A DNA stretch of 38,056 nt from Pelagibacteraceae bacterium AG-359-E06 (GTDB taxonomy: Bacteria; Pseudomonadota; Alphaproteobacteria; Pelagibacterales; Pelagibacteraceae): NCBI GenBank assembly GCA_003280495.1, contig QCET01000010.1:1-38056 (forward strand). Reading direction: 5' to 3'. Position 1 is the stretch's first letter, and every line of letters begins with the position of its first letter. The notes beneath the pieces were generated by a model. It had not been told where the DNA came from. It made no database searches and saw nothing but the letters and a program-made list of their open reading frames with translations. The translations under genes and the position numbers were made by a program. Shown here in pieces: positions 27,010 to 32,314 of the stretch.

Positions 27010-27037
27010 ATATGGTTATGATTTTATTTTTTTCAAG
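27010..27037 (-). promoter_or_regulatory. Candidate RpoH (sigma-32) promoter for hsp20
   Basis: The minus strand has CTTGAAA (plus 27031-27037), a 15-base spacer and CCATAT (27010-27015). This resembles the heat-shock consensus CTTGAAA...CCCATnT. The -35 element overlaps the stop codon of ptrB. Transcription would begin near 27003, leaving a leader of about 57 bases. Confidence 0.55.
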
Positions 27038-29108
27038 TGCTAACCAATTTACAAATCTTAAGGATAAAGGAGTAATCGAATGCTATTTCTTTGATACTTG
27101 CATCTCTTCCTGATTTGCCTCCATGTCCAGCTTCCATTTCAGTCTTCAGTAAAAGAAGATTTTGATCAGTTTTAAAATCTCTAAGCTTAGCAGTGAATTT
27201 GAGTGGTTCGTCGAATAGTACTCTACTATCATTTAAAGATGTCGTAATTAACATATTTGGATAGTTTTGTTTTTTTATATTATGATATGGAGCGTAGGAG
27301 AGGATATATTCAAAATGTTGTTTATTTTCTTTCGCATTTCCAAATTCAAAGAACTCTCCAGCAGTAAGGGGCAGTGTATGATCAAGATTTGTTGTTAATG
27401 AATCAACAAACGGTACAGCCAGTATCATGCCTAAAAATAAATTTGGTTTCTCATTTACTACAGCACCCATTAATAACCCCCCAGCAGAACCCCCATAGCC
27501 AATAATATTGCCTTCACTAGTGTATTTCTCTTTTATTAAAAATTCGGCCGAATCTATATAATCATTAAACGTATTTTTTTTATTCATCATTTTTCCATCT
27601 AACCACCATGACATTCCTCTCTCTGATCCTCCTCTTATATGAGCAGTTACCCAAATGATACCCCTATTTATGAGACTTAATGCCGATGTTGAAAAAGAGG
27701 GGTACATTGAAGATCCATAACTACCGTAACCGTATAATAATAATTTTGCATCACCATTCAAAAGTGTATCCTTATGATAAGTAATTGTTAAAGGTATACT
27801 TTTGTTGTCTCTGGATTTTGCATTAAGTCTTTTTACAATATAGTTTTTTGAATTATGACCTGAAGGAATTATTTTTTCTTTAACAAGCTTTTTTTCTTGG
27901 GTAGCAATATTATATTTATATATTCTTGCGGGGGTTTTTGGTGACTCATAACCGATATAAATATTATCAGTATTTTTATCTCTTTGGTATAAAGCAATAC
28001 TTGGGCTAATCACGGATTCATCTGTAATCGATAATTCACTTTCTTTCTCTGTTTCAAGGTCTCTTATTAAAACCCTAGATAAGGCATCTTTTACCTCTGA
28101 ACGTATCATCCATTTCTTAAGAAAAGTACACCCTCCAATGATTACCTGTTCTTTGGCGGGTATATAGTCTATCCATTTTCCAGGCTCTGAATGTTTTGAT
28201 TTACATATTTTGAAATCTAATGCATCTAAATTTGTTCTTATAATTAATTCATTATTCCATGAATTTGCGGAATATAAAATATCTCTTTGTCTTTTTCTTA
28301 TAATCTTTGGTTTCGGAATGTCTTCATCTCTTGAAAAAAACAAGACTTCAGATGTCGTATGATCCGAGGTTGAAATAAAATAATATTTTTCATCGGACGA
28401 ACTATCAATTGAGCATGAAAAAGATTTATCCATTTCTTCATATATCAATATATCTTCCTTTTCTTTGGTTCCAATCTTATGCCTATATATCTGTCTCGGC
28501 CTATGATTCTTATCTCTCTTAGAATAAAAGATAAATTTAGAGTCATATGACCACGTAATAGATCCAGATGTATGTGTTATCTCATCATCAAGGTCTTTAT
28601 TATTATCTAAATTTCTAATTTTAATTTTATAAAGTTCGCTACCTTTATCATCGACTGAATATGCTAATAATTTATCGTTATCTGAAACTTCAATATCGCC
28701 AAGACTAAAAAAAGTCTTTCCTTTAGCTTCTTCATCACCATTCCAATAAACTTCAATTTTATTGTTCGTGTGGCTTTGTCTTAGATAATTGGTATAATTA
28801 TTTCCCTTTTCATATTTTGACCAGTAGGTGTAATCTCTATCTATAAATTTTAAACTTTCGTCATCAAGTTTTATCCTACCTTTAATTTCGTTAAATAATA
28901 TATCCTGAGTCTTTTTTGTGTCTCTTAAATTAAATGTTGTATAATCATTTTCTTTTTCGAGATAATCTCTTACCTCAGGTAAAAGCTTCTTCTTATCAGT
29001 TAAAACCTCAAGAATATCTTTTTGGTGTACCCATGAATAATCATCTATGATTTCATATCCATGCAAATTTGTTACATTTCTTTTTTTTTTAAGTTTAGGT
29101 ATCTTCAT
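27033..29108 (-). CDS. ptrB: Oligopeptidase B (S9A family serine peptidase)
   Basis: A 691-residue protein of the prolyl-oligopeptidase family. An N-terminal beta-propeller (about 70-400) covers the catalytic domain. The triad is Ser541 in GYGGSAGG, Asp627 in SLNDSRV and His662 in GHGGKSGR. SWWLDGKMMNKKNTFNDYID and HIRGGSERG are usual for PtrB. It cuts short peptides after basic residues in the cytoplasm. There is no signal peptide. Its ATG is only 5 bases from that of the divergent J-protein gene, so its promoter must lie within that gene or be unusual. Confidence 0.92.
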   Translation of the reverse strand: MKIPKLKKKRNVTNLHGYEIIDDYSWVHQKDILEVLTDKKKLLPEVRDYLEKENDYTTFNLRDTKKTQDILFNEIKGRIKLDDESLKFIDRDYTYWSKYEKGNNYTNYLRQSHTNNKIEVYWNGDEEAKGKTFFSLGDIEVSDNDKLLAYSVDDKGSELYKIKIRNLDNNKDLDDEITHTSGSITWSYDSKFIFYSKRDKNHRPRQIYRHKIGTKEKEDILIYEEMDKSFSCSIDSSSDEKYYFISTSDHTTSEVLFFSRDEDIPKPKIIRKRQRDILYSANSWNNELIIRTNLDALDFKICKSKHSEPGKWIDYIPAKEQVIIGGCTFLKKWMIRSEVKDALSRVLIRDLETEKESELSITDESVISPSIALYQRDKNTDNIYIGYESPKTPARIYKYNIATQEKKLVKEKIIPSGHNSKNYIVKRLNAKSRDNKSIPLTITYHKDTLLNGDAKLLLYGYGSYGSSMYPSFSTSALSLINRGIIWVTAHIRGGSERGMSWWLDGKMMNKKNTFNDYIDSAEFLIKEKYTSEGNIIGYGGSAGGLLMGAVVNEKPNLFLGMILAVPFVDSLTTNLDHTLPLTAGEFFEFGNAKENKQHFEYILSYAPYHNIKKQNYPNMLITTSLNDSRVLFDEPLKFTAKLRDFKTDQNLLLLKTEMEAGHGGKSGRDASIKEIAFDYSFILKICKLVST

Positions 29109-29113
29109 TATTA

Positions 29114-29602
29114 ATGAATATTATAATATTTGGTTTTTTATTATTCGCTTTAATATACGGATTTCTGTGGCTAATGGCCAATGCCAAAAGTGAGACCTTT
29201 TCAACTTTTTTTAGATTAAGTACAATAATAACAGCAATAGTAATAATTGCAGGGTTATTTATTGCAGGAAAATATTTACTCTCACTCCCATTTTTTGCAA
29301 TTCTATCTGGAGCTATAAAGAAAAGATTATTGAATATTTTTAATATCATTTATTTATATAGACTGATATCAACAATCCTATTTTACAGCAGGACCAGACC
29401 TAATCAAAATTTTTCAAATTCCTATAAAGAGGTAAATAATGCTTATTCAATTTTAGGATTATCTCGTAATTGTACAAAAAAAGACATAATAGAAGCACAT
29501 AGGAAACTAATTAAAGAGGAACATCCAGATAAAAAAGGAAGCACAGAAAAAGCTAGTAAAATAAATCGTGCAAGAGATATACTATTAAAGATACATAGAT
29601 GA
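29114..29602 (+). CDS. Membrane-anchored J-domain protein (Pam18/DjlA-like)
   Basis: A 162-residue protein with two or three hydrophobic N-terminal segments (about 2-22, 36-52 and perhaps 54-66) and a C-terminal J domain (about 108-162). The J domain holds AYSILGL, the DnaK-activating HPD at 137-139 in KEEHPDKKGST, and INRARDILL. The layout, membrane anchor followed by a terminal J domain, is that of the alphaproteobacterial relatives of mitochondrial Pam18/TIM14. It should recruit DnaK to the inner membrane; the client is unknown. The start lies 5 bases from the divergent ptrB ATG. Confidence 0.85.
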   Translation: MNIIIFGFLLFALIYGFLWLMANAKSETFSTFFRLSTIITAIVIIAGLFIAGKYLLSLPFFAILSGAIKKRLLNIFNIIYLYRLISTILFYSRTRPNQNFSNSYKEVNNAYSILGLSRNCTKKDIIEAHRKLIKEEHPDKKGSTEKASKINRARDILLKIHR

Positions 29603-29718
29603 AAATTACGAAAATTTTGTATGGTATAATAATTTATTTCTTTATTAAAAATAAGATTATTGGTTTTACAATTTTAATCCCACTTATTTTCTTTTTTTTA
29701 ATTTTACTGTGTTTTTAA
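29599..29718 (+). CDS. Possible 39-residue single-span membrane protein
   Basis: An open frame that starts in ATGA overlap with the stop of the J-domain gene and runs 39 codons to TAA. The product begins MKITKILYGIIIYFFIKNK, then a very hydrophobic stretch (IIGFTILIPLIFFFLILL), a pattern of a basic start and one or two membrane helices. Its last 15 bases overlap the convergent glycosyltransferase gene. No family is recognised, and AT-rich sequence easily encodes hydrophobic runs. The ATGA coupling and the otherwise unexplained gap are the main support. Confidence 0.4.
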   Translation: MKITKILYGIIIYFFIKNKIIGFTILIPLIFFFLILLCF

Positions 29719-30624
29719 ATTAAAAAGATCTTTAAAATCTTTTTCAACACTATTAAAAACATGTTCAACGGTTATCTTGTCCATCGCTTTGCTTTGATGA
29801 GTGACGAATCTGTAACCCTCTGGAATAATTGCATGAATATTTTCAGTGTAAGAAGCATATAAGTTTGGTGTATCTCCAAATATTCCGTAACTTTTTAAAC
29901 CATATCCAGCTGCAAGATGCATGAAAGAAGTATCATTTCCAATGTATAATTTTCCATCTTGAATGTAATCTAAGCATGAAGTTAACTTTAAATCACATAA
30001 CGAAATAACGTTTTTAATATTTAAACCTTTTTCTATTTCTGTTGCATCAATTTTATCATCTGGACCACCTGCTAATATCAATCTGAAATCATATTTCTTA
30101 TTCAACTCACTAATCAAACGAATATACTTTGAAATACTCCATTTTTTTTGATAGCCACTACCGCCGATACCAATTACTAAATCATTTTTTTTTTCTGACG
30201 AAACTTTAGAAACTAACTTAAAGCGGTTCTCTATAGTTTTTTTATTTAAGCATCTAAGAGTAAAATTATAACCATCCTTAACGATATCGCTTTTTTTCTT
30301 AAAAAAACCATAAAATCTGACCTGTTTTGAGCCTGCGATTTTACATATTAATGGATATTTGATTCCGTAATGAAAAATAAATATTTTGTTAAATTTATTC
30401 TCTCTTACCCATTTAAAAAGTTGGAAATTACTCTGACCCAATTCTTCAAAATATTTAATTTGTTTTAAGTGAACATCATTGCTTAAAAAATCTTTTGCAC
30501 AACTTCTTTCCTTAGTAAGTAATGTGATTTTTGAGTTAAACGATTGCGAGATTTCATGTAAATATTTTAAATACAGGCATTGATCGCCTATTCCTGGTCT
30601 ATTTTGTATGATAAGAATATTCAC
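29704..30624 (-). CDS. Glycosyltransferase family 9 (heptosyltransferase-like) protein
   Basis: A 306-residue GT-B-type protein. The start NILIIQNRPGIGDQCLYLKY matches the GT9 N-terminus (RxxGIGDxxL), and LVIGIGGSGYQKKWSISKYIRLI and YIGNDTSFMHLAAGYGLKSYGIFGDT are the nucleotide-sugar region. GT9 proteins add heptose to LPS inner core; a different sugar in a simplified envelope is possible. It is convergent with the J-protein pair and 21 bases from the divergent polybasic protein. Confidence 0.8.
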   Translation of the reverse strand: MNILIIQNRPGIGDQCLYLKYLHEISQSFNSKITLLTKERSCAKDFLSNDVHLKQIKYFEELGQSNFQLFKWVRENKFNKIFIFHYGIKYPLICKIAGSKQVRFYGFFKKKSDIVKDGYNFTLRCLNKKTIENRFKLVSKVSSEKKNDLVIGIGGSGYQKKWSISKYIRLISELNKKYDFRLILAGGPDDKIDATEIEKGLNIKNVISLCDLKLTSCLDYIQDGKLYIGNDTSFMHLAAGYGLKSYGIFGDTPNLYASYTENIHAIIPEGYRFVTHQSKAMDKITVEHVFNSVEKDFKDLFNLKTQ

Positions 30625-30645: not shown

Positions 30646-31542
30646 ATGGTTAAAAAAAAGAAAAAAAGAAATAAGAAGAAAAAAAATATTTTAAAAAGAA
30701 AAAAGATAAAAAATTATATAAAGAGAAAAAATAAGTCAAAATTTAAAAGTCCTAAAAAAAAAAATAAAACTAAAGAAAGCCTAAAAAGCAAATTTAAGTT
30801 TTTTATTAACAAAATTTTAACTAAGTTTAAAATTTATGTAGAAAAAATAAATATTAGAATAGCAATATCGAAACTAAAAAAGATAGAAAAACTTCAAATA
30901 AAAGAAAAACAATTTCTTGAGTCAAAAGAGAGAAAAATACAAGATAGAAGGGATTTACTTTTAAAACAGATTAAGCAAGAGGAAAGATCTAAAATAGTTG
31001 AGCAAAAAGATCACTTATGGAAACTTGGTGATAGATTTAAATTAATTCGTGACAGGTATAAAGCTTATAAACAAAAACTCAGAGATCAGCAATTAGAAGA
31101 ATTAGAAATTAGAAGAAAATCACGTGAAGAAGCAAAAGCAATACTAGAGCAACAAAAAGCAGAAAACGAAGTAAAGAAAAAAGTTGAAGAGAGACTGGAG
31201 AGATACTCGAGAAATATGAAATCAATAGTATTTCAAATTAATAAAAGATATTTAGCTAGAAAAAGATCGCCCTTAAGATTTGTTGATAATATTGCTGAAA
31301 ATGGAGAGTGTTTTATAAAAAATGAAGACGCACCAACAGATAAAGATTACTTAATATTACTATTTATAAATGGAGATAGCGCCGTTGAAAGACTCTCTAA
31401 CCCAATATCAATTGAAGATAAAACCGATATGGGAAATATCAAAAAATTTGAGCCGAAAGATATTTTTGATGCTTCTGACTTTATAATCGAGAGACTTGCT
31501 ATAATGTTTGATAACGAACGGAAGCTTCAAAAATCTATTTGA
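30646..31542 (+). CDS. Polybasic coiled-coil protein of unknown function
   Basis: A protein of about 298 residues starting MVKKKKKRNKKKKN; an ATG 66 bases earlier lies inside the divergent glycosyltransferase gene. The first 53 residues after Met hold about 29 Lys/Arg and only one acidic residue. Residues about 70-190 are charged, Glu/Lys/Gln-rich and predicted as a long coiled coil (ESKERKIQDRRDLLLKQIKQ, LEELEIRRKSREEAKAILEQ). The last 100 residues are mixed and probably folded (YLILLFINGDSAVERLSNP, FDASDFIIERLAIMFDNERK). I recognise no family, signal peptide or membrane segment. A nucleic-acid or membrane-surface contact by the basic tail is a guess. Confidence 0.8.
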   Translation: MVKKKKKRNKKKKNILKRKKIKNYIKRKNKSKFKSPKKKNKTKESLKSKFKFFINKILTKFKIYVEKINIRIAISKLKKIEKLQIKEKQFLESKERKIQDRRDLLLKQIKQEERSKIVEQKDHLWKLGDRFKLIRDRYKAYKQKLRDQQLEELEIRRKSREEAKAILEQQKAENEVKKKVEERLERYSRNMKSIVFQINKRYLARKRSPLRFVDNIAENGECFIKNEDAPTDKDYLILLFINGDSAVERLSNPISIEDKTDMGNIKKFEPKDIFDASDFIIERLAIMFDNERKLQKSI

Positions 31543-31543
31543 A

Positions 31544-32314
31544 TTAACTTATTCTTGTTTTAACTTTACCTAATTTTTCAATATTTCCACTAAACAAACC
31601 TTTATATTTTATTGGTACAACACCCACGGTTGACCCGGTAAAAACATAAAAATTTTTATTGATAGACTTTCTTCTTCTGATTTTATTTATCAACCATACT
31701 AAAGATTTAATTGGACTATCATACACCGACTTTGTGTTGCCTTGTGTTTTTGAACCGGATTTTACATGCATAAGTTCAGTTTTAAGATTTGCAAAATTTA
31801 ATTTTTTATATTTTTTTTTAGATCCATTTATAAATTTTACGTTTGCTCCAAAATCACTTATTAAATCACCTAAAGTTTTTAATCCCCTTTTTTTTTGACG
31901 ATATCCTACAACCTCAATACAAGGACCCATAGATATAATATATTTACCTATATTTTTTTCAGTCATTTTATTTTTTGATAATAGAATTGATTTTTTTAAA
32001 TAGAAAAAAACTTCAAGCTCAATTCCTAAATTGTACTTGTTTATTTTAACTCTTGAATTAGATTTTAATAAATTTCTTTTATAAATCGAAGCAAAAAATG
32101 GTTCTTTTTCACCCCATTTTTTTAACATTGCTTTACCAGTTCCTCCAGCTTTAAACCCGACAATTTCAGATTTTATTTGTTCTTCACAGAGGCTTCTTAA
32201 GATGTTAGCTTGTTTCGAGCTATTGCAGAATTTCCTATTAATTGGGCTGATTAATTTTCCTCTTATAAAAGCATTAGATAACTTTTTTGCAGTTTTTTGA
32301 AGTTCTGTACCCAT
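31544..32314 (-). CDS. 2-keto-4-pentenoate hydratase-like (FAH superfamily) protein
   Basis: A 256-residue protein with the pattern of the MhpD-type hydratase/decarboxylase branch of the fumarylacetoacetate hydrolase superfamily. Matches are IVGFKAGGTGKAML (about 51-64), the metal ligands in NLGIELEVFFYLKKS, PCIEVVGYRQ, LGDLISDFGANVKFI and the C-terminal FTGSTVGVVPI. Such enzymes hydrate 2-oxo-pent-4-enoates in aromatic breakdown, but no other genes of such a pathway are here, so the substrate is open. It is Lys-rich compared with family members. The gene is convergent with the coiled-coil gene with one base between. Confidence 0.6.
   Translation of the reverse strand: MGTELQKTAKKLSNAFIRGKLISPINRKFCNSSKQANILRSLCEEQIKSEIVGFKAGGTGKAMLKKWGEKEPFFASIYKRNLLKSNSRVKINKYNLGIELEVFFYLKKSILLSKNKMTEKNIGKYIISMGPCIEVVGYRQKKRGLKTLGDLISDFGANVKFINGSKKKYKKLNFANLKTELMHVKSGSKTQGNTKSVYDSPIKSLVWLINKIRRRKSINKNFYVFTGSTVGVVPIKYKGLFSGNIEKLGKVKTRIS

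Follow-up and report, generated by a model that had tools for sequence, protein, structure and literature searches.

A single-copy SAR11 protein family with a polybasic tail, a long charged helix and a conserved C-terminal domain: a possible nucleic-acid tether

The window, meaning the whole stretch of 38,056 nucleotides that was analyzed, comes from the Pelagibacteraceae (SAR11) and carries a gene, present once in its own genome, for a 298-residue protein composed of a polybasic N-terminal tail, a long charged helix and a folded C-terminal domain (Table 1). The open reading frame list and translation place an ATG at the first codon of the frame. A TTG at position 30580 provides an alternative start that would lengthen it; the ATG at 30646 is the likely start, since the open frame of a same-genus orthologue begins one codon before its own ATG. 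Neither the sequence, read by eye, nor the AlphaFold2 model shows any sign of a signal peptide or membrane helix. Two relatives, L107 and L124, lack an ATG ahead of the basic tail and seem to use a non-ATG start.

Table 1. Positions of the polybasic-tail gene, its parts and its neighbors within the window
Feature	Position	Strand	Basis
Whole coding sequence, 298 aa	30646..31542	+	open reading frame and translation; one match in own genome
Polybasic N-terminal tail, residues 1-53	30646..30804	+	composition, pLDDT, codon selection in 63 relatives
Long charged helix, residues 41-202, weak coiled-coil tendency	30766..31251	+	AlphaFold2; heptad and salt-bridge tests
Conserved C-terminal domain with leading helix, residues 177-298	31174..31539	+	alignment, model pTM 0.82, dN/dS 0.02
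Presumed oligopeptidase gene	27033..29108		named from its sequence
J-domain gene	29114..29602	+	
Family 9 glycosyltransferase gene	29704..30624	-	
Convergent gene, possibly hydratase-like	31544..32314	-	weak NCBIfam matches

The glycosyltransferase gene is divergent from the polybasic-tail gene and starts 21 bases from it, while a convergent gene follows on the other side. For the product of this convergent gene, Pfam gave nothing at E up to 1. NCBIfam matches along its full length, weak and far short of the cut-off, are to 2-keto-4-pentenoate hydratase-type enzymes and hint that it may be a strongly diverged, hydratase-like protein; its gene is kept beside the polybasic-tail gene in several relatives. 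Beyond the glycosyltransferase gene lie a gene whose product combines a hydrophobic N-terminal half with a C-terminal J domain, which we take to be the layout of mitochondrial Pam18/Tim14, and a gene that presumably encodes an oligopeptidase. Homologues of the J-domain gene were found nearby in 13 of 15 relatives' stretches. Those of the presumed oligopeptidase gene were found in 14 of 15, and a contig end cuts the remaining stretch. The nearest same-strand genes upstream vary by clade, with DHDPS-like and CMAS genes in some and DsbA and HpcH in others. Conservation of gene neighbors, which the preliminary description had proposed to examine, thus holds for the place of the gene and fails for its same-strand upstream neighbors, which differ between clades and indicate no process.

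A whole-protein AlphaFold2 model built on 21 relatives (mean pLDDT 83.4, pTM 0.45) predicts disorder to about residue 40 (pLDDT 40-50 across residues 1-40), followed by a single helix of 162 residues with pLDDT mostly 86-97. The region after residue 202 is modeled with strands at 210-215, 221-226, 235-241, 254-258 and 266-268, and helices at 246-251 and 273-297. When folded alone, the C-terminal 122 residues gave a compact alpha/beta structure (mean pLDDT 88.6, pTM 0.82), bearing out the mixed, folded C-terminus of the preliminary description. The search for conserved residues that it had recommended for this region was also productive: 17 columns of the C-terminal alignment are invariant in 21 relatives. 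The invariant R189, S193, Q197 and K200 lie three to four residues apart on one helix, a spacing that suggests a partner face. Among 77 same-length pairs, which are not independent of one another, median dN/dS was 0.02 in the C-terminal domain, 0.10 in the helical rod and 0.38 in the tail. It is plausible that so nearly frozen a C-terminal domain is the part required to meet a specific partner. In one relative, L118, this domain is fused to unrelated sequence close to a contig end, which probably reflects a chimeric single-cell contig.

The middle of the protein had been described as a charged coiled coil of about 120 residues. The long helix stands, its length must be revised to the 162 residues modeled, and the coiled-coil label survives in part: the rod of the window protein has a modest local enrichment at heptad a/d positions (reached by 10 of 300 shuffles), whereas no global heptad period stands out. 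Equivalent enrichment in relatives was reached by one of 200 shuffles for L047 and L059 and by between 5 and 62 of 200 in seven others. An isolated single-alpha-helix (ER/K) rod was also considered; its salt-bridge score is 7 where shuffled sequences average -4, but 166 of 2000 shuffles reached that score, which does not make a clear case. The length ahead of the C-terminal domain ranges from 175 to 356 residues among relatives with an ATG start and a basic tail, as would be expected of a spacer.

The polybasic character of the N-terminus, where over half of the first 53 residues had been reported as lysine or arginine, is confirmed by direct count (29 residues, or 55%, with one acidic residue). 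Its rarity among neighboring proteins also holds. We ranked 50-residue segments by charge in 325 open reading frames of at least 90 amino acids, none touching an end, from the window and the stretches of 15 relatives. The 15 most positive segments belonged to the 15 uncut copies of the polybasic-tail gene, one per stretch, with a net charge of +24 to +34 in the best segment of each; the next best frame reached +17, and none of the 310 other frames has a comparable segment. A sixteenth copy of the gene, in L044, touches a stretch end and was left out. Measured up to the second acidic residue, the tail is 49 to 152 residues long in uncut relatives with a basic start. A query of eight genomes with the tail alone missed known copies in two of them (G010 and G022), and silence from such a search is therefore uninformative.

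Because AT-rich genomes inflate lysine, the preliminary description had been cautious about this composition, and it is possible to suppose that the tail is a by-product of base bias with no role of its own, leaving the work to the helix and C-terminal domain. The GC content of tail codons, 14% as opposed to 25% for the whole gene, is in keeping with this, as are the rapid evolution and variable length of the tail. The codons themselves argue otherwise. If mutation alone placed G, the first position (GAA) and the second (AGA) should receive it with about equal frequency, yet the tails of 63 relatives contain 1578 AAA, 281 AAG and 290 AGA/AGG codons as opposed to just 10 GAA/GAG. Over residues 2-60 of these relatives this amounts to 50% lysine, 9% arginine, 0.3% glutamate and 0.2% aspartate. 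Acidic codons a single step from AAA are thus nearly absent where arginine codons at the same distance abound, which answers the earlier caution and indicates that the tail is not the result of AT drift, with acidic residues having been purged. Selection keeps the charge of the tail and not its sequence, since acidic codons are rare despite a dN/dS of 0.38. Given also that 65 of 66 uncut relatives retain the basic start and that none of the 310 other frames matches it, we regard a role-less tail as highly improbable.

Within the 63 tails, 292 pairs of neighboring hydrophobic residues were counted where 318 were expected, a slight depletion that 7 of 300 shuffles matched. Isolated hydrophobic residues between basic pairs are more frequent than expected (104 as opposed to 79), a number that none of 300 shuffles reached. 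This depletion and isolation point to soluble disorder as opposed to a membrane-inserting helix. Alanine is absent from the tail of the window protein and makes up 0.9% of residues 2-60 in the 63 relatives. SPKK-like motifs and AT-hooks were considered as DNA signatures and rejected, the former occurring in 5 of 63 tails and the RGRP motif in none.

The protein query matched 51 of 60 genomes of the Pelagibacteraceae, the window's own included, and none of 40 from the sister family (51 of 100 overall). A C-terminal profile matched 230 of 297 genomes of the order, all in the Pelagibacteraceae and with one copy per genome among the matches listed; at least 14 genomes of the family have no match to it, two of which are 97% complete. 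In a sample of the class, 5 of 385 alphaproteobacterial genomes matched, all from the window's own family, and no relative was seen among those sampled outside it. Ten sister-family genomes searched to E 10 likewise gave no match, in a search that had no built-in positive control. A scan of named genomes, which depends on a pair of short motifs and would overlook distant relatives, matched 514 relatives, and the titles of the 80 that were kept name Pelagibacteraceae, Pelagibacterales, Pelagibacter, Fonsibacter, HIMB114 and unclassified alphaproteobacteria. Frames were uncut in 66 of these 80, and the three-part layout, whose conservation the preliminary description had left to be tested, is retained in 65 of the 66. 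The gene is thus single-copy and near-universal in the Pelagibacteraceae. A phage origin was rejected, as no relative was found in viral contigs with either the whole protein or the C-terminal alignment.

The earlier failure to place the protein in any known family, C-terminal domain included, is upheld by our searches of Pfam, NCBIfam, PHROGs and PDB sequences, which returned nothing worth keeping. The full protein matched only a phage tape-measure model (E 0.1) across Pfam (E up to 1), NCBIfam and PHROGs, and no PDB sequence at E up to 10. Residues 119-298 gave weak matches to DUF2570 (E 0.0035), fvmX5 (E 0.045), GvpL (E 0.076) and FloT (E 3.4e-4; 19.8 of 700 bits), all well below their cut-offs and mostly in the charged helix, and we therefore treat them as composition. 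Single members of the C-terminal alignment produced stray, unshared hits, such as ArlH at E 0.0016 in one of 21. Relative to the libraries searched, this is a new, lineage-restricted family, and we found no description of the protein in the literature outside subscription journals and supplements.

In structural searches with the C-terminal domain, the best Foldseek match had an E of 0.33 in the PDB and 0.095 among viral models. VIA ranked CapZ alpha first (8f8q_G, Z 8.5, rmsd 4.0, 103 residues aligned, 6% identity), with Med17 and frataxin (9jb5_B, Z 7.7, 6% identity; 4hs5_A, Z 6.9, 3% identity) close behind and the YjbR fold at Z 5.6; according to the VIA note, Z near 8 is the level of common arrangements and Z about 5 is background. 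CapZ alpha, of which the C-terminal half of the subunit fold is the part compared, frataxin/CyaY and YjbR align with the predicted SAR11 domain over a helix-antiparallel sheet-helix arrangement at 3 to 12% identity in the VIA rows, and none of the 21 relatives has a Pfam match to CapZ, frataxin or YjbR at E up to 1. To the eye, the first helix of the SAR11 domain, which bears the invariant R189, S193, Q197 and K200, looks basic to neutral, unlike the acidic first helix with which frataxin/CyaY binds iron. Class I type III secretion chaperones and YbjN have a fold of helix, three strands, helix, two strands and helix; the predicted order of elements here is much like it, and no such chain appears among the VIA matches listed. 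The models suggest a shared fold at most, and we claim no kinship.

A tail that conserves its charge as its sequence changes is consistent with non-specific polyanion binding, and the polyanions of the cytoplasm are DNA, RNA and the anionic membrane. We give even weight, for and against, to a reading of the protein as a cytoplasmic nucleic-acid tether of the Pelagibacteraceae. In this model, the charge of the disordered lysine tail would attach it to nucleic acid of any sequence, the long helix would probably self-associate and would set distance and valency, and the nearly frozen C-terminal domain would grip a conserved protein partner or dimerize. Such a tether would work like heparin-binding hemagglutinin (HbhA) of Mycobacterium tuberculosis, which is described in the accessible part of its source as a nucleoid-associated protein with an alpha-helical coiled-coil domain and a lysine-rich tail that is required for sequence-independent DNA binding (PMC10665949). 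The rod and lysine-rich tail are common to both proteins. However, according to the same part of that source, the HbhA tail is C-terminal with AKKA repeats whereas that of the SAR11 protein is N-terminal, HbhA has a short hydrophobic N-terminal segment of which none is apparent here, and no folded domain like the SAR11 C-terminus is described for it (PMC10665949). Family scans found no sequence relation between the two. Compared with HbhA and H1-like proteins, the SAR11 protein has the rod and disordered lysine-rich tail and lacks AKKA or PAKKA repeats, which supports a similar way of working and not membership.

GapR is a helical DNA-binding protein of Alphaproteobacteria. Its Pfam model (PF10073) spans 72 positions and has no match in the 298-residue protein. 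PF10073 was found in 70 of 96 genomes sampled across the class and in none of 97 Pelagibacterales genomes sampled, nor in the window's genome, and it seems that SAR11 lost, or never had, GapR; we found nothing relevant in the literature on GapR in SAR11. Since the sister family, as far as sampled, has neither protein, the SAR11 protein is not a simple GapR replacement. It has no HU/IHF (PF00216) match, and the window's genome contains three HU/IHF-type genes on other contigs. HU-type genes are present in each of 12 genomes tested (three in 11, two in one), and GapR in none of them.

As to what the tether would hold, we lean towards chromosomal DNA, as an architectural nucleoid protein, over ribosomal or messenger RNA. 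The HbhA precedent, together with GapR absence and the HU-type genes, makes a nucleoid role plausible and no more. Nothing in the tail is DNA-specific, as AKKA repeats are absent and SPKK-like motifs so few, and the three HU/IHF-type genes already in the genome count against a DNA tether. The more specific proposal of a lineage-specific architectural chromatin protein, in which an H1-style lysine tail, rod and conserved anchor organize the nucleoid of the GapR-less Pelagibacteraceae, is tentative, with the chances against it. An unlikely, if credible, alternative is a ribosome- or RNA-bound factor with its tail on rRNA and its C-terminal domain recruiting or blocking a partner, in ribosome assembly, hibernation or the membrane targeting of ribosomes. 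Ribosomal proteins typically carry lysine-rich disordered tails like this one, and hibernation factors occur among the weak fold matches (8fmw_W, Z 5.0; HPF, Z 4.5), although these scores are at background level and the identified neighbors reveal no operon link to translation genes.

A peripheral membrane scaffold, its tail on anionic lipids and its rod and C-terminal domain organizing something at the inner membrane, seems less probable again. Polybasic tails can bind anionic lipid, and the J-domain gene, with its hydrophobic N-terminal half, and the glycosyltransferase gene are conserved nearby. However, the latter is on the opposite strand and stands between the J-domain gene and the polybasic-tail gene, and the membrane is disfavored as a target because the tail hydrophobics are isolated, not clustered, and a hydrophobic anchor is absent from both sequence and model. 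SAR11 cells are curved, MreB is present in 12 of 12 genomes tested and CapZ alpha heads the structural matches, which might suggest that the protein is a rod of the cytoskeleton or of cell shape that works together with MreB. The Foldseek score is poor, however, and Med17 and frataxin come close behind CapZ at a Z typical of common arrangements, and we give this idea very little credence.

SAR11 genomes hold little more than a thousand genes, and streamlined genomes shed those that are not needed. That a single-copy, near-universal gene with a C-terminal dN/dS near 0.02 matches no described family in the libraries searched suggests a core SAR11 function that does not yet have a name. If the tether that we favor does bind the nucleoid, the protein would be a main candidate for DNA organization in these GapR-less alphaproteobacteria and, should it prove to be a chromatin protein, a nucleoid organizer of some of the sea's most abundant cells.
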